IMG/VR virus record: IMGVR_UViG_3300037521_000317
Coordinates: 1 to 44,119 of that record
Strand: one strand, 5' to 3'
DNA from: a virus
Length of the DNA stretch: 44,119 nt
Below the pieces are notes generated by a model. It was not told the origin of the DNA and did no database searches. It saw nothing but the letters and a program-made list of their open reading frames with translations. The translations under genes were made by a program, and so were the position numbers. Of this stretch, positions 9,589 to 44,119 are shown piece by piece; position 1 is the stretch's first letter, and the number at the start of each line of letters is the position of its first letter.

Positions 9589-9665
9589 TGCGGAGTAGAG
9601 CAGTCTGGTAGCTCGTTAGGTTCATGCCCTGAAGGTCGCTGGTTCGAATCCAGTCTCCGCAACCA
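9589..9665 (+). tRNA. tRNA with CAU anticodon, initiator-tRNA-like
   Basis: A 77-base cloverleaf with encoded CCA. Acceptor stem TGCGGAG/CTCCGCA; D stem GAGC/GCTC; anticodon stem TTAGG/CCTGA with loop TTCATGC (anticodon CAT at positions 34-36); T arm with TTCGAAT loop. The A11-U24 pair, the D-loop CTGGTAGCTCGT and the AAGGTCG variable region match bacterial tRNA-fMet. Unlike canonical initiators, position 1 is U and pairs with A72, the loop has G37 and C38, and the third GC pair of the anticodon stem is A29-U41. It could serve as fMet, elongator Met or Ile2. Confidence 0.9.
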
Positions 9666-10805: not shown

Positions 10806-11342
10806 ATGACAAATAACATCGTACACAAAGCTCTGTGTTTTGCTTATGAGTCATGTCTTGGGAAGAATAAGAAATACACATACGACCCTTATATTTTCCA
10901 TCCTATAAATGTTTCAACTATGATAAGAGACCGCGGATTTGGTAACGATGCTATCGCAGCCGCACTTTTACATGATTTGGTAGAATACACGGACACAGAA
11001 ATTGACGATATATATATCAAGTTTGGGAAAGTCATAGGAGATTTAGTTAAAGAGGTTACGGATAAAAATGTCTTTGTAGGCATGACCAAAAAGGAACAGG
11101 AAGATTTATATCTGAATCATCTATCGAAAGCCTCATACGTTGGGAAATCTATTAAATTGGCTTCTCTAATAGATAGCACAAAGGATATAATTAAGTATGA
11201 TGAGGATTTTGTAAAGTTTTACTTGCCAGAGTGCGAAAATCTACTTGAAGTTCTGGCAGATGGAGACCCTATTTTTTTAAAAGATATAAAGTGGACATTT
11301 TTTTTATCAAAAAAGAGATTGGAAAAAAGGATTAATAAATGA
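10806..11342 (+). CDS. HD-domain protein resembling MESH1/SpoT alarmone hydrolase, degenerate active site
   Basis: The 178-aa protein aligns by eye with small (p)ppGpp hydrolases: HPINV (His32), AAALLHDLVE (His56-Asp57, Glu60), then the FG...LV.EVTD helix pair and IKLASLIDS. In the family the last motif reads K-L-A-D with a later Asn. Here the Asp ligand is Ser120, the Asn position is Ser124, and the Asp after the VE pair is Tyr61. It may therefore bind a nucleotide without hydrolysis, or use altered chemistry. It sits between endolysin and a small membrane protein in the lysis operon, so it is expressed late. Confidence 0.75.
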   Translation: MTNNIVHKALCFAYESCLGKNKKYTYDPYIFHPINVSTMIRDRGFGNDAIAAALLHDLVEYTDTEIDDIYIKFGKVIGDLVKEVTDKNVFVGMTKKEQEDLYLNHLSKASYVGKSIKLASLIDSTKDIIKYDEDFVKFYLPECENLLEVLADGDPIFLKDIKWTFFLSKKRLEKRINK

Positions 11343-14275: not shown

Positions 14276-14466
14276 AGCTGACAATGAAATCACTGAAAGA
14301 AAATATTGATCTTTTGAAAAAGGAGGTGAAGGATCTAAGATTGAACTTAGCGATGTGTCAAACAGAATTACATACACTTACACACGATCAGCAATACAGA
14401 AATCTACAGATAATGGGTAGGATTAAGACACTAGAGCTGAACGCTGATAAGGAGGACGAGAAATGA
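14272..14466 (+). CDS. Small coiled-coil protein, 64 aa
   Basis: Almost entirely a heptad-like helix (MKSLKENIDLLKKEVKDLRL, then LAMCQTELHTL), ending in charged residues. Overlaps the previous and next genes by four bases each. It resembles many small phage coiled-coil proteins but has no specific match I can name. Confidence 0.5.
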   Translation: MKLTMKSLKENIDLLKKEVKDLRLNLAMCQTELHTLTHDQQYRNLQIMGRIKTLELNADKEDEK

Positions 14467-14744
14467 TGCACTATAAGTGGGAAAAAGCAAAAGTGGTATT
14501 ACACCTAAGAGACGGTGTGTTCTATGACAACTATGGAAACATTTCTCATTCAAAATATTTTGAATCTGATGATGAGGCTGAAAAATCTATAATGGGACTG
14601 ACTAAATGTGTGAATTGCCTTAATTGTTATGATTGTTATGATTGTGAGGCATGTGTAGAATGCTATGATTGTTACGAGTGTTATTCGTGTGTTGAATCCT
14701 CTGGACTTGAGGATAGGGAGACTGTGTATAATACTCATCATTAG
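14463..14744 (+). CDS. Cys-x-x repeat protein, 93 aa
   Basis: Residues about 49-77 contain Cys at every third position for ten repeats (C-V-N-C-L-N-C-Y-D-C and onward), a strictly periodic tripeptide repeat. Such a period could give a narrow left-handed solenoid with a cysteine ladder, or a multi-site metal binder. The first 45 residues form a small mixed domain (KAKVVLHLRDGVFYDNYGNISH). AAGGAGG precedes ATG 14463. The amber stop at 14742-14744 is followed by 67 sense codons in the same frame that resemble another gene family. Confidence 0.65.
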   Translation: MMHYKWEKAKVVLHLRDGVFYDNYGNISHSKYFESDDEAEKSIMGLTKCVNCLNCYDCYDCEACVECYDCYECYSCVESSGLEDRETVYNTHH

Positions 14745-19112: not shown

Positions 19113-19526
19113 CTACTCTTCTATAATAGACATTATCCTATCTATCTTATTGTTGTTGACAATGTGTTTGTGTTCAATTCCATTTTCATTCACACGCACA
19201 ATGCAGTAAGATAGATTTTCTATATTATGTATTGATATTTTTTCATCTTCACAGAAGAATTTTCTTTTTATGTATTCAGATATCATTCTGAAATATGACT
19301 GGTCTTTGGTGCAACAGAGAGCAAAATCATAAAGATTAACTTGTCCGTTTGTTGCATTTTGAATTCTGACGCATGTCTTCATACTGGGACTTTTAGATTT
19401 CCTTTTCAATATACTACTAACTATAGCACTAGCACATTCTATTTCATACCCCATAAGCATGCCGAACTGATGCTTATTTAGATTCTCATTTCTCATAAAA
19501 TTATTTATTTTTTCATATGCATTCAT
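19113..19526 (-). CDS. XRE/Cro-type transcriptional regulator
   Basis: I start this leftward gene at 19526, where AAAGGA stands 8 bases upstream; an earlier in-frame start lacks one. The 137-aa protein has a helix-turn-helix in residues 1-65: helix EKINNFMRNE, LNKHQFGMLMG, then SAIVSSILKRK, followed by SPSMKTCVRIQNATNGQVNLYD, a pattern typical of Cro/YdaS-like regulators. The C-terminal half is specific to this phage. It faces the exonuclease and Rep operon, so it probably controls replication and recombination genes. Confidence 0.7.
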   Translation of the reverse strand: MNAYEKINNFMRNENLNKHQFGMLMGYEIECASAIVSSILKRKSKSPSMKTCVRIQNATNGQVNLYDFALCCTKDQSYFRMISEYIKRKFFCEDEKISIHNIENLSYCIVRVNENGIEHKHIVNNNKIDRIMSIIEE

Positions 19527-19617
19527 TATACATCCTTTCAATTTAATCCTGATATTAATCATACATCATATTATCAAAAAAACAATAACTTTTTTTAAAA
19601 AAACTTGTTTTTTTATA

Positions 19618-19644
19618 TTGACTTTACCACCCTTAGTCTATAAG
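19618..19644 (+). promoter_or_regulatory. Putative promoter and operator of the exonuclease-Rep operon
   Basis: TTGACT at 19618-19623, then TATAAG at 19639-19644 with a short 15-base spacer (TAAGCT at 17). CTTA-GTCTA-TAAG (19632-19644) is a small palindrome overlapping the -10 and could be an operator for the divergent XRE regulator. A leftward promoter (TTGTTT, 16 bases, TATGAT) is also readable across 19560-19587. Confidence 0.45.
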
Positions 19645-19683
19645 CTAAATAGCAGGATATACCGAAGAATAAGGGGCTATACT

Positions 19684-20082
19684 GTGTTGCACTACATAAC
19701 TATAAATACCATTGATGAATTCATATCTAAGAAATGTCATATTGTAAATTATTCATCGCACAGATTGGCTTGGCTTCAATCAAAAAGGAAATACATTTTC
19801 CAGACAAAGAAAGGTGAATTCGTATGTGCCAATGATATGTGTGATATTTTTAATCTAATAGGTATATATGGTCTTGTTAATTTCTGTTTTATCCAGTCAA
19901 ATAATATAGATTATTATAGACACATGAAATTGGAAGAATTCCTTTATTATTCCTTCATCAAGGTAAAGATGTATGATGACTTTTTTCTCACAATTAGTTC
20001 TAAATTGATTGACAGTATATTTATTACCTATAAGCAAACAAGTGATTGTTTGAAAGATAGGGGAGTATACACAAAGCAGTAA
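19684..20082 (+). CDS. Hypothetical protein, 132 aa
   Basis: First gene right of the XRE regulator. I prefer GTG 19684 because AAGGGG lies about 10 bases upstream; the TTG at 19618 coincides with the promoter -35. Aromatic-rich sequence (SHRLAWLQSKRKYIFQTKKG, then MKLEEFLYYSFIKVKMYDD) without a known domain. Position suggests an early gene. Confidence 0.5.
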   Translation: MLHYITINTIDEFISKKCHIVNYSSHRLAWLQSKRKYIFQTKKGEFVCANDMCDIFNLIGIYGLVNFCFIQSNNIDYYRHMKLEEFLYYSFIKVKMYDDFFLTISSKLIDSIFITYKQTSDCLKDRGVYTKQ

Positions 20083-20120: not shown

Positions 20121-21233
20121 ATGGATAATAAAGATGGCGTTTACATATCAATGTGCGAAGAAGAATATCACTCGATAGATAGGTTGAGTTGCTCTGCAAT
20201 GAAAGATTTAATGTTGAACCCTTCTGTATTTTGGCACAGGTCTTGGATGAACCCTGATAGGCAGAAGTACAGGAAATTTTCGAAGGCATTTTCGTTCGGT
20301 AGAGCGTACCACACGGCAATATTAGAACCTGAAAAGTTCGATGAGAACTATTGTTGTGAGTACATAAAGGATGATTGTGTTCACCGACTAGATACCTCTA
20401 TGGAAGTCGGTAATAGATTGTCGGAACTTGGAAAGCCAAAGAAAAAACAGGGCGAGGATGCTTACCAGCAGGCTTTGAGATTACAAGACGAAGAAGAGAA
20501 AGAAGACCCTTTTTATCGCGGTAGGATATTGACGCTTGAAAAACATAAGCATAAAGAAGAAACGCAGGGTAAGAATGTTTTAACGCTTGAAGAATTCGAT
20601 ATGATAGCAAGGCATAGGTCTTATATATCGGAGAACGATAACCTTAACTTTTTGTTTGATGATTTTTTACCTGAGATAAGCATACTGTGGACGTGTCAGG
20701 AGACTGGCGTCAAGATGAAGGCAAGGCTAGATTGTCTTTCTCCCGACCATATATGTGACATAAAAACGTTTTCTATGATGAGACCAATAGGAAACAAAAG
20801 GAAAATAGCATCCTCTCAAATAATGGATCACAATTATCACCTACAGGTATTTACATACATAGAAGCAATGAGGCATTTCAAGCAAGGTTTAATAAACTGC
20901 ATTGATACGACAACTCCTTGGCACAAAACATTCTTTAATAGTATAAGAGATAATTATCTATCTAATCCTAGTGGGGATAATGAACCCTTCTACTTTCTTT
21001 TCTGCGAAAAATCTTTGATTGAAAATATTTTTGTCTATGAATTTCCTGTTCTTAAGACATCAATTGTTTCTAACGTGCATTCAGATGTTTATTCATTGGC
21101 AGAACAATCATACATAAAATGTTTGAGAGATTATAAACAACTATCGGATCATTACGATAATAGACCATGGAAAGATATGTTCATAAAAGTTGAGGGTTAT
21201 TGTGACGACTTTCCTGCTTATTATTTTGTATAA
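20121..21233 (+). CDS. RecE-like exonuclease (PD-(D/E)XK, DUF3799-type)
   Basis: The 370-aa protein degrades one strand of duplex DNA ends for phage recombination. Diagnostic features: N-terminal YHSIDRLSCSAMKDLMLNPS, the GRAYHTAILEPEKF segment (His64), the nuclease core ARLDCLSP-DHICDIKTF (Asp204, Asp213, Lys215), and a helix with Q-x-x-x-Y (HLQVFTYIEAM). A Lys/Glu-rich insertion lies around residues 105-150. It likely partners with the Sak4-like ATPase at 29275. Ribosome-binding site GAAAGGGA. Confidence 0.85.
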   Translation: MDNKDGVYISMCEEEYHSIDRLSCSAMKDLMLNPSVFWHRSWMNPDRQKYRKFSKAFSFGRAYHTAILEPEKFDENYCCEYIKDDCVHRLDTSMEVGNRLSELGKPKKKQGEDAYQQALRLQDEEEKEDPFYRGRILTLEKHKHKEETQGKNVLTLEEFDMIARHRSYISENDNLNFLFDDFLPEISILWTCQETGVKMKARLDCLSPDHICDIKTFSMMRPIGNKRKIASSQIMDHNYHLQVFTYIEAMRHFKQGLINCIDTTTPWHKTFFNSIRDNYLSNPSGDNEPFYFLFCEKSLIENIFVYEFPVLKTSIVSNVHSDVYSLAEQSYIKCLRDYKQLSDHYDNRPWKDMFIKVEGYCDDFPAYYFV

Positions 21234-21241
21234 TTAATGAT

Positions 21242-22237
21242 ATGGTAAGCACCATAAAAGTAAAACATATTGGGTCAGCATGGAATTTAACATTAAAATC
21301 CATTGTACCTATACCATTGCAATTTTTTACATCTCGTGTCCATGGGAATTTTTCTGAAAGAGATTATAAGTTATGGGTATTTTTGATACACGCTGTGTTC
21401 AAAGATCTTGATTACGATAGATTATACTCAATACCTATAAATGACATTCATGATATTTTCTCAAGGTACGGATGTGCTAAAAATAAGTCATGGATAAGAA
21501 TAACAGCAATAAATATTAACAACACTAGAGTATCATTTCCTTATAAATTTGGAGATGACAGGATAGAAGACAAGCTATACAATATACTAAATTTACAGTC
21601 TTTAAATGACGGATATTTAAAATTCAAAATACCTATAGAAATTATACGTATGATAAAATCACCAGAAAGATTTGTTAATGTAAGAACTGACCTGTTTCTT
21701 TCATTGAAAGGTAAGATAACAATACGTCTTTATTCAATACTTGAGGGAAACCATAAGTCTAAATACAATAAATTAAATGTCACTTCTCAAACACTTCTTG
21801 AATGGCTTAGCCTTTATGAATATGTAGATTTTAAAAGATTAAAATTCACAATACTGAAAAAATGTTTGCCACAGTTGCCAAAATATAAAATAGGTTTTGA
21901 TTATAACATAAAATTCATAAAGCACGGCAGGTCTTTTAAGGAAGTATGCTTTGATTTTTCAAAGACAAATCAAGAAGAATTCGAATCAAAATCAATCACA
22001 ACCATAATGAACTCATTAAGACCGAAAATAACTTCATACGGTATCATGACAGCACAAAAGGAAACATTACACCTCCTTGATATGGATAAAGTGCTGAATG
22101 ATTTTTTGACATACTGGGAAAAAACGGGAAAACCTGACTTTAAAAACTCCGCTAACAGCGTCTTTATAGGATTCGCCAAGAAGGTATTTTTGGACACCAA
22201 GGACAGTATAATAAAAGAAATTACATTAAATACGTAG
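21242..22237 (+). CDS. Plasmid-type replication initiator (Rep_3-like)
   Basis: The 331-aa protein shows the winged-helix initiator pattern of Rep_3 (RepA/RepB-type) proteins: SLKGKITIRLYSILEG (matching the usual S-x-Y-x-x-R-L-Y-E-L-L), then a helix ending LSLYEYVDFKRLKFTILKKC, then strands IGFDYNIKFIKHGRSFKEVC (the x-x-G-R-x-x-x-x-I-x-F end). Only 9 bases follow its stop before three 11-bp-spaced DnaA boxes and then three 21-bp iterons. It has no obvious Shine-Dalgarno, consistent with low, controlled expression. Predicted role: bind the iterons and recruit host DnaA and helicase. Confidence 0.75.
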   Translation: MVSTIKVKHIGSAWNLTLKSIVPIPLQFFTSRVHGNFSERDYKLWVFLIHAVFKDLDYDRLYSIPINDIHDIFSRYGCAKNKSWIRITAININNTRVSFPYKFGDDRIEDKLYNILNLQSLNDGYLKFKIPIEIIRMIKSPERFVNVRTDLFLSLKGKITIRLYSILEGNHKSKYNKLNVTSQTLLEWLSLYEYVDFKRLKFTILKKCLPQLPKYKIGFDYNIKFIKHGRSFKEVCFDFSKTNQEEFESKSITTIMNSLRPKITSYGIMTAQKETLHLLDMDKVLNDFLTYWEKTGKPDFKNSANSVFIGFAKKVFLDTKDSIIKEITLNT

Positions 22238-22246
22238 TCAACAGCC

Positions 22247-22277
22247 TGTGGATAACTTGTGTATAACCTGTGGATAA
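22247..22277. promoter_or_regulatory. Three tandem DnaA boxes (part of replication origin)
   Basis: TGTGGATAA at 22247-22255, TGTGTATAA at 22258-22266 and TGTGGATAA at 22269-22277. The outer two are perfect reverse complements of the DnaA consensus TTATCCACA. They are spaced exactly 11 bp, one helical turn, and lie right after the rep gene. Confidence 0.85.
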
Positions 22278-22288
22278 CTTTTTTCTAA

Positions 22289-22351
22289 AGTTTTTTTTGG
22301 AACGTTTAGAGTTTTTTTTGGAACGTTTAGAGTTTTTTTTGGAACGTTTAG
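22289..22351. repeat. Three identical 21-bp iterons
   Basis: Direct repeats at 22289-22309, 22310-22330 and 22331-22351, each an AG followed by eight T, then GGAACGTTTAG. The 21-bp length is two helical turns and typical of plasmid iterons bound by Rep_3 initiators; the T-runs supply an AT-rich unwinding region. Together with the DnaA boxes they form a candidate origin. Confidence 0.85.
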
Positions 22352-22469
22352 AGGCGAAAAACCCTTTAAAATCAATGGCTTAGGGGGTCGCAATAACTAT
22401 AATACTATTAATATAAAAGGACAGGTCAGAAAATAATATAAAAAAGTTAGAAAATAAAAAAAAAAGTGC

Positions 22470-22498
22470 TTGACTTATACCGAGCAGTATATTATATT
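22470..22498 (+). promoter_or_regulatory. Strong promoter of the 22.5-31.9 kb operon
   Basis: TTGACT (22470-22475), 17-base spacer, TATATT (22493-22498). The preceding A-run and GTGC resemble the upstream flank of the lysis promoter at 10189. The next gene begins 47 bases downstream with GGAGAG as ribosome-binding site. The origin lies immediately upstream, so transcription starts next to it. Confidence 0.75.
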
Positions 22499-22545: not shown

Positions 22546-22773
22546 ATGAGTTCAAACAATAAAGACGAAAAATCTAAGTTAATTGAATGCGTAAAACTAA
22601 TCGATAGACAGACAAGCCTAATCGCTAGGCAAGAAAAAGTAATCGAAGGACTGGAACGTTTAAACGACGTCCAAAAGTTAACAATCGATAGGCAAGAAAA
22701 AGTAATCGAAGAACTGGAACGTTTAAACAATATTCAAAAGTTAACAATCGATAGACGGGAGGGTAAGAAATGA
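22546..22773 (+). CDS. Repeat-built coiled-coil protein, 75 aa
   Basis: Contains two nearly identical 21-residue units (RQEKVIEGLERLNDVQKLTID and RQEKVIEELERLNNIQKLTID), preceded by a shorter relative. The units are three heptads, so an uninterrupted coiled coil is expected. The DNA repeat is 63 bp. First gene of the operon and overlapping the next, similar gene by four bases. Function unknown; oligomerisation is likely. Confidence 0.6.
   Translation: MSSNNKDEKSKLIECVKLIDRQTSLIARQEKVIEGLERLNDVQKLTIDRQEKVIEELERLNNIQKLTIDRREGKK
22627..22752 (+). repeat. 63-bp tandem repeat, two copies, within coding sequence
   Basis: 22627-22689 and 22690-22752 are near-identical and encode the 21-residue coiled-coil unit. 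Each copy contains GGAACGTTTA (22653 and 22716), the same ten bases as the iteron core 300-400 bp upstream. Confidence 0.8.
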
Positions 22774-22967
22774 CTGAAGAAAACAGAGACGAAGAGTTTA
22801 CGTTATTGAAAGAAGTAGTCGATAGTCAGAAGCGGGTAATCGACGAACAAAAGTTAAGACTCGATGAACAACAAAATGTAATAGACACACAAGATAAAAT
22901 AATCTCTGTTCAAAAGTTAAGACTCGATGGACAGGGAAACCGATCCAACAGCAAGAGGAAAAACTGA
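22770..22967 (+). CDS. Coiled-coil protein, 65 aa
   Basis: Related in style to its upstream neighbour: repeats of V-I-D-E-Q-K-L-R-L-D-E-Q (residues about 20-55) give a continuous charged helix. Its first 20 bases are identical to those of the DUF1351-like gene at 27780, indicating a copied translation start region. The end (GNRSNSKRKN) is basic. Confidence 0.55.
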   Translation: MTEENRDEEFTLLKEVVDSQKRVIDEQKLRLDEQQNVIDTQDKIISVQKLRLDGQGNRSNSKRKN

Positions 22968-27779: not shown

Positions 27780-28787
27780 ATGACTGAAGAAAACAGAGAG
27801 ATAACCTTAACGCACAGTTTCGACATAAAAACAAACATGGATAGACTCAAGGAGTCTACCAGGGAAGGCATAAAGAAATACGATATCGTTGTCACGGAAG
27901 ACAACATCGCCGAAGCAAAGAAACACATGGCTAGCATCAATAAAGACAAGAAGGAATTCACTGACAAGGTAAAAGATTTCCTCTGCATCGTCAAAGGCAC
28001 AATATGTGACTTCAAGGAGAAAGGAAAGGAAGTCATTGAAGTTCTTGATGAGGCAAGAGATAAGATAAAATGCAAGGTTGATATATTCGAGGTTATTAAG
28101 CTAAATAAAATACTCTATATCGTAGAAGGATACCGTGACTCAGAATGCTCTGCACGAGGTATTGACCCTAATAAAATAGATATAAAAGACTTGATAATAT
28201 TGTCTGCAGTGTCTTCTAGCATGAATCTGTCAAATAAGACGAAGGAGTCTATAGACAATAGAATTCTATCCATTGAAGCGAAGATATTGAAAGACAAGAT
28301 AGCAGAACAAGAAAGAAGAAAACACGAACAGGAAATAGCAGAGAAGGCTAGGAAAGAAGAGCAGGATAAATTCCTAAAACTTGAGGCTGAGTTTAAAATA
28401 AAAGCTGAGAGAGACAAGGAAAGAGCTGTAGAGAGGGCAACGCTTGAGGAGAAAAGGCGAAACGACGAAGAGAGAAAGAAGGAGGAATCTCTAAAGCATG
28501 AGACTGAGTTCAAGACCTCTGCTGAGAGGGGAAAGAAGATCGTCGTTGAGAGGGAAAACATTAAGAAGAAAGAATGGAGTCTGAGAGAAGATAATAAAAA
28601 AGAAATAATCCAAAAGAAAGTAGTAGAAAACGGTAAAAAGAACTTGATTGTTACAGCAAAGTTCAGTATAGTTCGTAAAGAAGGTATGGAAGAGTCATCT
28701 GTAAAGAATAAGATTAATGAAATACTTATAAATTCAATTATAGGTAGATATTTGGTGTCAATTTCAGTGCAGGAGGAGACAAAATGA
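27780..28787 (+). CDS. DUF1351-like phage protein with coiled coil
   Basis: 335 aa. The N-terminal third matches DUF1351 in pattern: VVTEDNIAEAKKHMASINKD, KKEFTDKVKDFLC, then the IVKGTICDFKEK helix. Residues about 165-270 are a long Glu/Lys/Arg coiled coil. Members usually lie beside recombination genes, as here (Sak4-like ATPase downstream). GGAG precedes ATG 27780; a 17-codon frame (27730-27783) overlaps its start and could be a leader peptide. Confidence 0.65.
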   Translation: MTEENREITLTHSFDIKTNMDRLKESTREGIKKYDIVVTEDNIAEAKKHMASINKDKKEFTDKVKDFLCIVKGTICDFKEKGKEVIEVLDEARDKIKCKVDIFEVIKLNKILYIVEGYRDSECSARGIDPNKIDIKDLIILSAVSSSMNLSNKTKESIDNRILSIEAKILKDKIAEQERRKHEQEIAEKARKEEQDKFLKLEAEFKIKAERDKERAVERATLEEKRRNDEERKKEESLKHETEFKTSAERGKKIVVERENIKKKEWSLREDNKKEIIQKKVVENGKKNLIVTAKFSIVRKEGMEESSVKNKINEILINSIIGRYLVSISVQEETK

Positions 28788-29239
28788 CTGAAGAAAAAGA
28801 AATGAGTGAAGAAAATAACGACCTATACATAGCAATGATAGAATGTACAAAAGAAATAGTGTCAGTTTATATAAGAATGTATGGAAGTACTATTCCAACA
28901 GAAGAATTATCAGAGGTCATTAGTCTTGTTGCTAAAGCTCTTAAGAAAGAATTCGTCGATGAAGTTTTTGTTGAGAATATACTAGAATTAGACAAGTTCA
29001 AGGATTCAATCAAGGATAGCTATTTGGTTTGTTTGGAATGTAAAGGTAAATACAAATCTTTGAAAAGACATTTGATGTCAGTACATCAATTAGATGTTAA
29101 ACAATATAAGAAGAGATATAATTTGCCAGAATCATATCCTATGGTGAGTAAGAATTACTCACAAATAAGGTCAAAACTTGCCAAGGATTTGAAGTTTGGA
29201 GGAAGGAATAATGTGAAAGAAGATGTGAGTAAGAATTGA
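28784..29239 (+). CDS. Ros/MucR-family zinc-finger regulator, C-x2-C type
   Basis: 151 aa. The C-terminal half is a Ros/MucR domain: VCLECKGKYKSLKRHLMSVH (Cys-x2-Cys-x9-His-x4-His), then QYKKRYNLPESYPMVSKNYS and SKLAKDLKFGGR. The N-terminal half is helical and variable, as in host MucR. The family is a hallmark of Alphaproteobacteria, acting as silencer-like regulators. GGAGGAG precedes the start. Compare the second copy at 31076. Confidence 0.85.
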   Translation: MTEEKEMSEENNDLYIAMIECTKEIVSVYIRMYGSTIPTEELSEVISLVAKALKKEFVDEVFVENILELDKFKDSIKDSYLVCLECKGKYKSLKRHLMSVHQLDVKQYKKRYNLPESYPMVSKNYSQIRSKLAKDLKFGGRNNVKEDVSKN

Positions 29240-29274
29240 GTTTTTTTAGTGTTAACCAAATGAAAGGAAGTTTC

Positions 29275-30360
29275 ATGGAATATATAAAAGAAGATGAAAA
29301 GAGGGTGGTAATAGCGATATGCGGGGGATCTGGATCTGGTAAAAGTACTTGTTCTCTATCTATCAGCGAAGGACTTGTCGGGGATGAACCTGAAGATATA
29401 GTATACCTTATCGATACAGAAAACAGATCATCAATATATAGATCACAATTTAATTTTGAATGTATACCTATGAACCCACCATATAATTATAGTAATTTCA
29501 TAGGTATTATAGAATATCTTAAAAAAAAGGTAACAAGGAAATCTGTAATCATATTCGATACATTTTCGGATTTTTGGAGTGGAGACGGTGGTGTTCTTGA
29601 CCAAGTGGATAAGTGTGGAAAATCATCCATACATTCTTGGGGTAAGCCTAAGAAAGGAAATAGGAATTGTCTAGATAAATTATTATCATTAAATACACAT
29701 GTTATAATAAACCTATTCGCAAGACAGAAGATGACCATGGGGAAAGATGAAAATAATAAAATGGTCGTAACAAAAGATACTTTCTTGACGGCGGAACAAG
29801 ATCACGCCTTAACAAGGAAGTGTGACATGAGGATATGTCTCAATTTAGAATCACCAGGTACATTTACAATAGAAAAGGTTTGCGCACCTCTTATAGAGGC
29901 TGTTCTTCTTAGGGATTCTGACGAGGAGATTACTTATGAGCTTGGTGAACACATAAGAGAGCTATTAGAATCGAATTCTATAGCGGTTACACGTAGAGGT
30001 AAGAATATATTAGAACTCGCTAGAGAGGCTTGTCGTGATGGACTGGATGCATACAGGGGGCATTTTACGTCCTTAAAAGGAAGGGAACAAAGATTCATTT
30101 CAAAAACAATGAAACACCAAGAATTTATAAAGATTTCAAAACAATACGACGTTGATAGGGAAAAGAAGGAAAAAGTAGTTCTAAAGGATGGAGAGTATGT
30201 AAATTTTACTAAAGAACAATGGAAATCAATAGAACCCTTAGAAAGATCTGAAAGTTCAGTGATACCAATAGAATCATACAGGGATGACAAGGAAGCAGAC
30301 CAGTACGATGAAATGGATTACACACCAGACGTTGAAATGGAAAGGGAGGAATTAGCATGA
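29275..30360 (+). CDS. Sak4-like RecA-fold ATPase / single-strand annealing protein
   Basis: 361 aa from ATG 29275 (GGAAG upstream; TTG 29236 is an unlikely earlier start). Walker A GGSGSGKST at residues 17-25, Walker B VIIFDTF near residue 95, then LNTHVIINLFARQKM and a basic-acidic C-terminal region. This matches the AAA_24/Sak4 group of phage recombinases that anneal single strands together with SSB. Partner of the RecE-like exonuclease at 20121. The acidic tail is typical of SSB-interacting proteins but unproven here. Confidence 0.75.
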   Translation: MEYIKEDEKRVVIAICGGSGSGKSTCSLSISEGLVGDEPEDIVYLIDTENRSSIYRSQFNFECIPMNPPYNYSNFIGIIEYLKKKVTRKSVIIFDTFSDFWSGDGGVLDQVDKCGKSSIHSWGKPKKGNRNCLDKLLSLNTHVIINLFARQKMTMGKDENNKMVVTKDTFLTAEQDHALTRKCDMRICLNLESPGTFTIEKVCAPLIEAVLLRDSDEEITYELGEHIRELLESNSIAVTRRGKNILELAREACRDGLDAYRGHFTSLKGREQRFISKTMKHQEFIKISKQYDVDREKKEKVVLKDGEYVNFTKEQWKSIEPLERSESSVIPIESYRDDKEADQYDEMDYTPDVEMEREELA

Positions 30361-30988: not shown

Positions 30989-31039
30989 CAAGGGTGGGGA
31001 CAGATTGACCCCTCCCTTGAGTCCGTGACGATTTGTCAC
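30989..31039 (+). promoter_or_regulatory. Two hairpins before the second MucR gene
   Basis: CAAGGGTGGGG (30989-30999) pairs with CCCCTCCCTTG (31009-31019), 10 of 11 bp, nine-base loop. It is followed by GTGAC-GATTT-GTCAC (31025-31039). They lie in the only sizeable gap of the operon's 3' part, 37 bases before ATG 31076. They may act as an attenuator or an operator for MucR autoregulation. Confidence 0.5.
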
Positions 31040-31075
31040 AAAGTTAAACGTAACCCTCCTGAAAGGAGAAATAGC

Positions 31076-31522
31076 ATGAATGATGAAGTGAATAAAGATA
31101 AGTTGATGCATTTAACAGTGAAGATTTTTACTTCGTATGTATCTAATAATGAGTTAGAACCAGAAAAATTTACAGATCTTTTGAAGAGTGTTTATGATAC
31201 TCTTTCAGGATTACAATCAGGAGTATCAAATATTGGATCTCTTCCCGCCGTACCAATAAATGAATCAATCAATCCAGATTACCTGATTTGTCTTGAAGAT
31301 GGTAAGAAGTTTAAGTCTCTAAAACGGCATTTGCGGACTCACTATGGCTTATCTCCAGAGGCGTACAGAGAAAAATGGGGGCTTCCCAGCGATTATCCGA
31401 TGGTTGCACCAAGCTATGCGGTCAAACGCTCTATGCTTGCCAAAAAAATGGGACTTGGGCAGAAAATGGGAAATGGTGCGAGTAATAAAGTTACGGAGGT
31501 TAGAGATGAGTCAGAAAAATAA
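31076..31522 (+). CDS. Ros/MucR-family zinc-finger regulator, C-x2-D type
   Basis: 148 aa from ATG 31076, which has GAAAGGAG upstream. The C-terminal zinc-finger domain reads LICLEDGKKFKSLKRHLRTH, so the second metal ligand is Asp rather than Cys, as in MucR itself; then AYREKWGLPSDYPMVAPSYA and SMLAKKMGLGQKMG, very close to chromosomal MucR. The more GC-rich codons in this domain (31280-31470) than in the N-terminal half suggest the domain came from a host gene. Confidence 0.88.
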   Translation: MNDEVNKDKLMHLTVKIFTSYVSNNELEPEKFTDLLKSVYDTLSGLQSGVSNIGSLPAVPINESINPDYLICLEDGKKFKSLKRHLRTHYGLSPEAYREKWGLPSDYPMVAPSYAVKRSMLAKKMGLGQKMGNGASNKVTEVRDESEK

Positions 31523-32349: not shown

Positions 32350-32688
32350 TCAAAGTCTAGTTTCTCTATTCAACAAAGCCCTGCAATATTCTCTTGTGCT
32401 TCTTAACTCTACGTTTGTCATTCTTGATATGAAGGTAAACATCTCCTTTATTTCAGGTATGAAACTTGGCTCTAATATAGTGTCATCTACAATGTAATCT
32501 ATGCTAACGCCTAAAACATCACATATTTTTTTAATGTTTCTAACGCTTGTGAAAGGCAAATCTTTAATCTCGTAATTGCATACATTCCTTTGTGTAATGT
32601 TAGACTTCCTAGATAGTTCTGATTGAGTCATGTTTCTGATAATTCTTAAGGCTCTTATTTTAGATCCTATTTTTGTATTTTTTTTCAT
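32350..32688 (-). CDS. XRE-family (cI-like) repressor
   Basis: 112 aa. Helix-turn-helix in residues about 8-62: GSKIRALRIIRNMTQSELSR, then SNITQRNVCNYE and IKKICDVLGVSIDYIVDD, which is a classical XRE domain with its final hydrophobic cap. No peptidase domain follows, so it is not a LexA/lambda-cI type cleavable repressor. It is divergent from the terminase operon, with promoters overlapping (32700-32747), suggesting it holds the virion genes off and regulates itself. Confidence 0.82.
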   Translation of the reverse strand: MKKNTKIGSKIRALRIIRNMTQSELSRKSNITQRNVCNYEIKDLPFTSVRNIKKICDVLGVSIDYIVDDTILEPSFIPEIKEMFTFISRMTNVELRSTREYCRALLNRETRL

Positions 32689-32780: not shown

Positions 32781-33323
32781 ATGGAACAAAAAACACCAAA
32801 TAGACAGACGTCGAACAGACGCTCAGAGGCAACGGTAAGGGAATGTTTCGATGGAAAATTCAACAATGTAAATTGTAGTAAAAATGAATTAAATGACGAT
32901 CAAAAAAATGATTTGAGAGAATTCGCACCTTTTCTCAAAACACTAAGACAACAAGCTCACCTTGTTGGCGTCACAGAACACTCCTTACAAATGATCTTAG
33001 ACAAGGACGAGGAGCTAGCGAAGTATTGTAGGAGAGAGAAATCCCTAAAAATTGCCAAAATGGGTCAGGTTCTTTACCAGAAGGGCATAGATGGTGACGC
33101 AGGCTCACAAAAATTCTATCTTGAGAAAATGGGGGGATATACCGACGAATTAGAAATAATAGAAACAGAGAAGAAATTCCTCACGCTTCAAGATATGTAT
33201 CCAAATGATGTTAATAACATCAGCGATAAGCAGAGAAGCGCTGTAATTGAAGAATATGAAAAAAATAAAGAAAACGAGAAAGAACACCAAGAACAAAAGG
33301 AACAGGAAAGGAAAACGACGTAA
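32781..33323 (+). CDS. Terminase small subunit
   Basis: 180 aa upstream of TerL. The pattern TLRQQAHLVGVTEHSLQMIL (a helix-turn-helix) followed by KIAKMGQVLYQKGIDGDAGS and QKFYLEKMGGYTDELEI is typical of small terminase subunits, which recognise the phage DNA start site; the FYLEKMGGY motif is particularly common. The Lys/Glu-rich C-terminus (from residue 150) is a charged tail. Weak ribosome-binding site (GCGGA). Confidence 0.75.
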   Translation: MEQKTPNRQTSNRRSEATVRECFDGKFNNVNCSKNELNDDQKNDLREFAPFLKTLRQQAHLVGVTEHSLQMILDKDEELAKYCRREKSLKIAKMGQVLYQKGIDGDAGSQKFYLEKMGGYTDELEIIETEKKFLTLQDMYPNDVNNISDKQRSAVIEEYEKNKENEKEHQEQKEQERKTT

Positions 33324-43291: not shown

Positions 43292-44119
43292 GTGTCAATT
43301 CCACAACAAAGATATGTGAATATAAATTCTATCGTATCAGGGACTTCTGCCGTTCAACAGAGAGAACTTATACTAAGGATTTTCACGACCAATGAATTAG
43401 TCCCGACGACTGGTTCATCTCCAGTAAGTGGGTTGGTTGAATTTACTTCTCTAGGTGACGTTGGAGACTATTTCGGTGATACATCGGAAGAATTCCTAAG
43501 GGCTACATTCTACTTCAATTTCATAAGCAAAACAGGCGTGAAAGCGGACAAGATAGGATACTATAGATGGGCAGATGTTGACACAGCCCCTCAAATATTC
43601 GGGGCATCACAAACACAACTCCTAGCAGACTTCCAAGCAATCACAGATGGTTCATTCTCTATTACATTAGGTGTTATATCTGAAGACATAACTGGTCTTA
43701 ATTTTAGTTCAGATACGTCTTTAGAGGATGTCGCTTTAAGGGTTGAAAGTGCTATCCAAGCGTCAAATGGTGATGTGTTATTCACTGGTAGTACAACAGT
43801 CTTCAATGCATTGGGTTCACAATTTAATTTTGTAGGTGGTGCTACAGGTGCTAACATCATATCTGTCACACAAGCCCCTTCTGGTACTGATATACTGACT
43901 CTTTTGGGGTGGAACTTAAATACAACTGTAATCTCAAACGGTATCGCAACGCAGACAATAACAGAAGTCCTACAATCTTCTTTAAACAATTCAAACAATT
44001 TCGGATCGTTTCTATTTATACCAACATTGACACTTGTACAGGTTACAGAAGCCTCAATATGGAATGTTGCCCCTAACGGAGAGAATAATCAATTTATTTA
44101 CACAGTGCCAGTTTTGAAT
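43292..44119 (+). CDS. Contractile tail sheath protein (DUF3383-like), N-terminal part
   Basis: GTG 43292 follows AAAAGGGG. The frame is open to the last base of the window and continues at base 2 of the window through the 127-bp overlap. The joined protein is 502 aa. The N-terminal domain (PQQRYVNINSIVSGTSAVQQ, then RELILRIFTTNELVPTTG, then LGDVGDYFG) is typical of DUF3383 sheath proteins; the C-terminal part at 2-808 holds the tube-facing domain. Annotators reading the linear sequence would split this gene wrongly. Confidence 0.88.
   Translation, partial: MSIPQQRYVNINSIVSGTSAVQQRELILRIFTTNELVPTTGSSPVSGLVEFTSLGDVGDYFGDTSEEFLRATFYFNFISKTGVKADKIGYYRWADVDTAPQIFGASQTQLLADFQAITDGSFSITLGVISEDITGLNFSSDTSLEDVALRVESAIQASNGDVLFTGSTTVFNALGSQFNFVGGATGANIISVTQAPSGTDILTLLGWNLNTTVISNGIATQTITEVLQSSLNNSNNFGSFLFIPTLTLVQVTEASIWNVAPNGENNQFIYTVPVLN
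43993..44119. repeat. Terminal direct repeat, copy 2
   Basis: Identical to bases 1-127. Removing one copy gives the true circular sequence. Confidence 0.95.

Follow-up and report, generated by a model that had tools for sequence, protein, structure and literature searches.

The replication locus

The window analysed here is the complete stretch of 44,119 bases in IMG/VR virus record IMGVR_UViG_3300037521_000317. It contains a gene for a replication initiator of the Rep_3 type (rep), directly followed by a group of origin-like elements. These features, together with the neighbouring and regulatory genes referred to below, are the following:

19113 to 19562, minus strand: candidate regulator, a small protein judged helix-turn-helix (HTH)/Cro-like by eye and encoded divergently to the exo-rep operon
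19618 to 20082, plus strand: first ORF of the putative rep operon, unknown function
20121 to 21233, plus strand: PDDEXK nuclease resembling exonuclease VIII (DUF3799), ending 8 bp before rep
21242 to 22237, plus strand: Rep_3-type replication initiator of 331 aa with two winged-helix domains (WH1, WH2) and a C-terminal helical tail
22247 to 22255, 22258 to 22266 and 22269 to 22277, minus strand: three DnaA boxes at 11-bp spacing
22291 to 22353, plus strand: putative iterons, a tandem array of three identical 21-bp direct repeats
22391 to 22470, no strand assigned: A+T-rich stretch, putative DNA unwinding element (DUE), located by nearest-neighbour stability
22470 to 22498, plus strand: promoter-like TTGACT-17-TATATT reading into the operon at 22546, 10/12 consensus matches
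29236 to 30360, plus strand: AAA_24/Sak4-like recombination ATPase
32350 to 32688, minus strand: XRE-family repressor (PF01381, 33.6 bits; phrog_8, phrog_3), divergent from the terminase and head genes

The exonuclease VIII-like gene and rep are probably co-transcribed. Since the sequence preceding rep (21225-21242) carries no clear Shine-Dalgarno motif and the ATG follows a TATAAT hexamer at a distance of about 8 bases, translation of rep may be coupled to that of the upstream gene or may be leaderless. Promoter-like sites in the region overall were not enriched over shuffled sequences. The small ORFs at 22546-22967 consist of coding units that recur as 63-bp repeats (22620, 22683, and 22859), and the stretch GGAACGTTTAAAC, which resembles the iteron core, occurs twice (22653 and 22716).

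Two XRE repressors had been proposed for this genome in the initial annotation. This holds for the protein encoded at 32350, whose match to the Pfam family HTH_3 lies above the cut-off, whereas the protein encoded at 19113 gave no significant family match and its HTH was recognized by eye only.

The Rep protein

The assignment of the 331-aa protein as a diverged Rep_3-type initiator is supported by its sequence, by profile comparisons, and by the fold of its AlphaFold model. In single-protein Pfam searches, the matches to PF01051 (Rep3_N; residues 33-167) and PF21205 (Rep3_C; residues 188-239) occur in the right order along the protein and score 21.6 and 17.2 bits, slightly below the respective cut-offs of 22.4 and 21.1 bits. 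A tblastn search of plasmids yielded a full-length homologue, the annotated replication initiation protein of Methylomagnum pRS11DPr3 (27% identity over 95%, E = 3e-28), which itself scores above both Pfam cut-offs. A genome scan revealed 17 loci with matches to Rep, mostly on short contigs and belonging to Rhodobacterales, other alphaproteobacteria, and Methylococcales, the best of them with 31-32% identity. Two of these contigs are self-closing, at 6.6 kb (L006) and 5.2 kb (L009). Among solved structures, a profile built from 16 Rep sequences matches mini-F RepE (5e-9) and R6K pi (7e-8).

The AlphaFold model (mean pLDDT 79) comprises two winged-helix domains and superimposes on RepE54 with a Z score of 18.6 over 210 residues and on pi with a Z score of 18.1; a Z score of about 18 was also obtained with 8aan and 8ac8, complexes of a Rep protein with iteron DNA and a single strand of the DUE. 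Homologues, family profile, and fold thus all agree with the winged-helix Rep_3 protein that had been suggested initially. Rep is nevertheless strongly diverged and lies on a very long terminal branch (3.48). Its C-terminal tail is the part best conserved with the Rhodobacterales group (up to 43-45% identity, compared to about 34% for WH1 and 30% for WH2). A DnaT-like, helicase-recruiting function of this tail, suspected from the sequence FLTYWEKTGKPDF, was not supported by searches of the PDB and Pfam with the tail only.

No relatives of Rep were found by tblastn in 50,697 phage records, nor in IMG/VR with patterns derived from the single protein or from the alignment, a type of search that can miss distant relatives. 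Rep also matches phrog_2172 (E = 1.6e-5), a PHROG without assigned function that may consist of phage Rep_3-type initiators.

The putative origin

The three DnaA boxes read TGTGGATAA, TGTGTATAA, and TGTGGATAA, all with TTATNCACA on the minus strand, and the first begins 10 bp past the rep stop codon. Their starts at 22247, 22258, and 22269 are exactly 11 bp apart, as had been described initially, and three boxes this close together did not occur in any of 300 simulations. The strict DnaA box is found five times in the 44 kb, three of them at the origin, with approximately 3.2 expected genome-wide. The adjoining direct repeats have the sequence TTTTTTTTGGAACGTTTAGAG; all three copies of the earlier description were recovered and end two bases further downstream than first given. 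The perfect-period run extends over 44 positions in the window, whereas 30 simulations with an order-1 Markov model gave runs of 9-14. Other good copies of the 21-bp repeat are absent from the window.

About 40 bp past the repeats lies the least stable duplex of the origin region, which reaches the 96-99th percentile of duplex instability for the genome. This putative DUE includes two A+T-rich repeats spaced 21 bp apart, at 22425 and 22446. The features of an iteron-type origin are therefore present, namely tandem repeats of approximately 17-22 bp near rep, DnaA boxes, and an adjacent A+T-rich DUE. Because the 21-bp repeats are unlike the iteron motif of homologous plasmids, it is from this layout that we infer binding of Rep to them.

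Comparison with homologous replicons

The closest homologues of Rep (27-34% identity) are encoded by small Rep_3 replicons of Rhodobacterales and Methylococcales (L006-L018 and Methylomagnum pRS11DPr3). To compare their origins with that of the phage, we asked which repeat period scores best next to rep at each homologous locus. Where the upstream sequence was long enough, the best upstream period is 20-22 bp at nearly all loci, matching the 21 bp of the phage, with the reservation that L011 has equal, low scores for 21 and 24 and that several other loci score only 0.60-0.67. The origin of these replicons is situated upstream of rep, whereas that of the phage is downstream, and none of the homologous loci has a comparable repeat array downstream of rep. 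Most of them contain an exact TTATCCACA on one strand upstream of rep, usually a single one and mostly on the rep-coding strand, while the phage boxes are on the opposite strand.

A conserved GGGGACAgATTCAGC-like iteron motif with a period of 20-22 bp precedes rep in L002, L004, L006-L009, L012, L015-L018, and L021, loci that span alpha- and gammaproteobacteria. The phage differs in this respect, since its 21-bp repeats do not match the motif (p = 0.29, an approximate value for a motif hand-aligned from 12 loci) and the window contains neither an array of the motif nor a site above chance. Either the diverged Rep has gained a new specificity or another protein binds the repeats. We favour a new specificity because the DnaA boxes and the DUE flank the repeats, and the strong divergence of Rep makes such a change plausible.

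Phage genome and host

The window carries a complete set of phage genes, encoding the large terminase subunit (TerL), portal, head morphogenesis protein, protease, major capsid protein, sheath, tape measure, baseplate, fibre, endolysin, and holin; the structural genes are those of a contractile-tailed phage. The element is most likely a temperate phage of the myovirus type. TerL is 42-44% identical to those of Gofduovirus (Edwardsiella phage Edno5) and Obolenskvirus (Acinetobacter phage BP10). In contrast to the window, Edno5 has an integrase and BP10 a replicative helicase. A tRNA-Met (CAT) gene is located at 9589-9665 between the tail and lysis genes, and an HD-domain phosphohydrolase gene (10806-11342) adjoins the endolysin gene. 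The small protein encoded at 14463-14744 contains a dense run of cysteines (CVNCLNCYDCYDCEACVECYDCYECYSC), and the ORF at 32781-33323, in the position of the small terminase subunit, matches DUF2660 weakly and below the threshold (21.6 vs 25 bits).

Identical ends of 127 bp (1-127 and 43993-44119), both inside one tail sheath gene, close the map on itself at 43,992 bp. The length of this overlap resembles an assembly k-mer, and contig L006 closes with exactly 127 bp as well. Closure was therefore rejected as evidence for a plasmid, also because circularly permuted virion DNA, which also fits the map, would close in the same way; we counted this against the plasmid reading. The metagenome contig L023 matches 12,054 bp of the window with a single mismatch; such a 12-kb stretch, 99.99% identical, is present in metagenome 3300043165.

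The host is probably an alphaproteobacterium, judging from gene content and despite a G+C content of 35%. Two ROS/MucR zinc-finger regulators (28784-29239 and 31025-31522; 103 and 149 bits) are encoded in the early operon, and the relatives of the one that was searched further occur mainly in alphaproteobacterial plasmids and phages. The GTA-type holin, the similarity of the exonuclease to those of Erythrobacter phages, and the Rhodobacterales homologues of Rep point in the same direction. A distant relative of the major capsid protein (26-27%) was detected in 4 of 385 alphaproteobacterial genomes and names no host.

Integration, partition, and inheritance genes

Family models for tyrosine integrases (PF00589), serine recombinases (PF00239), and protelomerases (PF16684) had no match in the window, while the controls were positive, and no recombinase or transposase was present among the scanned non-structural-looking ORFs of at least 150 aa. 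On a record that closes on itself, these results bear out the lack of integrase, transposase, and protelomerase noted in the initial annotation. The same is true for ParA (PF13614) and ParB_N (PF02195), which were likewise without match in the window with positive controls. No toxin-antitoxin or partition family was found among the small ORFs of the window, no dif-like XerCD site at up to 3 mismatches, and no second initiator, phage helicase, primase, or polymerase was recognized in the window.

Among the larger IMG/VR records with related terminases, a tyrosine integrase is encoded in 44 of 49 and Rep3_N in none of the 49, counts that are biased, as many of these records look like prophages from isolate genomes. 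As the window has no integrase, it therefore stands where an integrase-bearing relative would, with a plasmid replicon in its place.

Lacking partition genes, the element could be stably inherited only at a moderate copy number or by means of an unrecognized system. Partition systems are common in phage-plasmids, yet they are no requirement for being one; the lack of both partition and toxin-antitoxin families is unusual for a low-copy plasmid.

Discussion

A plasmid-style initiator with an adjoining start site, in a phage genome lacking recognizable integration machinery, suggests that this phage probably lives as a plasmid. We consider it likely that the prophage persists as an extrachromosomal circular element, i.e., as a phage-plasmid of an alphaproteobacterium. 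Counted against this reading are the mismatch between the repeats and the plasmid motif, the lack of a partition or toxin-antitoxin family, and the long branch of Rep.

The arrangement of the locus suggests how such a replicon could work. Rep would be produced from the exo-rep operon, the start of which diverges from the HTH-like gene at 19113-19562, and its two winged-helix domains would bind the three iterons just 3' of rep, while host DnaA would occupy the three neighbouring boxes, which are helically phased. Rep and DnaA could jointly melt the A+T-rich DUE, where the host helicase would be loaded, perhaps with the help of the C-terminal tail of Rep. Copy number might be limited by the supply of Rep and by iteron pairing. 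Given that neither a further initiator nor a helicase or primase was recognized, the same origin may also serve in lytic growth, during which the exonuclease VIII-like and Sak4-like proteins would make concatemers. A more specific version of this proposal can be put forward only tentatively: a single re-targeted Rep_3 protein and a single origin downstream of rep could maintain the prophage and also drive lytic replication, with no genes for partition, resolution, or addiction; copy number would then be controlled by a phage repressor acting on the exo-rep operon instead of by Rep autoregulation at upstream iterons.

The most serious alternative is that Rep and the repeats constitute a vegetative origin only, used by a virulent or otherwise maintained phage that captured the initiator from a small plasmid in place of an O/DnaB-type module and forms no stable plasmid prophage. 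The lack of a partition or toxin-antitoxin family, the great distance of Rep from its plasmid homologues, and its position as sole recognizable initiator beside recombination genes, as in early lytic modules, are in line with this explanation. On the other hand, the XRE repressor divergent to the late genes and the mostly integrase-bearing, temperate relatives of the terminase speak against it, and small replicons of high copy number can do without partition genes. We regard an exclusively lytic origin as unlikely.

Less probable still is that the repeats are operators for another protein, for instance the regulator encoded at 19113 or at 32350, and that Rep acts elsewhere. Their dissimilarity to the iteron motif common to the Rep homologues would be accounted for, but their period equals that of the homologous iterons, they are flanked by DnaA boxes and DUE, and the window offers neither a plasmid-type iteron site above chance nor additional good copies of the repeat; the divergence of Rep, moreover, allows for altered specificity. 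Integration by an unrecognized route, such as a diverged recombinase, host XerCD, or homologous recombination, would reduce the Rep origin to an accessory. Many small ORFs without a family and the recombination genes leave some room for it, yet the negative results with the tyrosine and serine recombinase models, with the longer non-structural-looking ORFs, and with the search for dif-like sites make this explanation very improbable. The plasmid prophage remains our preferred reading.

Comparison with known systems

In the iteron plasmid RK2, oriV contains five iterons and trfA lies far from it. The winged-helix initiator TrfA works together with host DnaA, as is proposed for the phage Rep. 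The succession of DnaA boxes, iterons, and A+T-rich DUE in the phage is also that of RK2/RP4 oriV, which differs by its four DnaA boxes (PMC4980987) from the phage with three boxes, three iterons, and a directly adjacent rep gene. With mini-F RepE and R6K pi, the phage Rep shares the fold of residues 16-247, whereas identity is only about 15% and the phage protein has an extra C-terminal helical tail of approximately 80 residues.

Phage P1 encodes parAB, phd/doc, Cre, and a separate lytic initiator, RepL, and its oriR is located upstream of repA. In contrast, partition, addiction, and resolution genes were not recognized in the present phage, and its origin is downstream of rep. What the two would have in common is maintenance of the prophage as a plasmid through an iteron initiator and DnaA boxes (RepA and oriR in P1; PMC4980987); the size of P1 is given as about 94 kb in one source (PMC10999674). 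The phage-plasmid of Tritonibacter mobilis and related roseobacter elements resemble our phage in size (about 42 kb), circularity, the presence of a C1-type repressor, and their alphaproteobacterial host, and are kept as plasmids (PMC10090143). They have parAB, yoeB-yefM, and a P4-type primase, or RepABC (PMC10090143), whereas the phage has a Rep_3 iteron replicon and no recognized partition or toxin-antitoxin genes. A branch of the Quimbyviridae with RepA and antirepressors but without integrase has been inferred to be episomal (PMC8008677), and plasmid replication genes have been described as very rare in phages and frequent in phage-plasmids (PMC10879196).

Phage-plasmids are thus already known, and the present phage adds a further, fairly compact one: a probable alphaproteobacterial phage-plasmid on a minimal Rep_3/iteron replicon of the small Rhodobacterales/Methylococcales type, from a lineage in which the terminase relatives mostly integrate. 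It provides a compact system for studying how a single initiator and origin could act in plasmid inheritance as well as in phage replication, how inheritance of a phage works in the absence of recognizable partition genes, and how an initiator changes its iteron specificity while the 21-bp period stays. With its downstream origin, divergent iterons, and no recognized partition genes, it is a reasonable experimental target.
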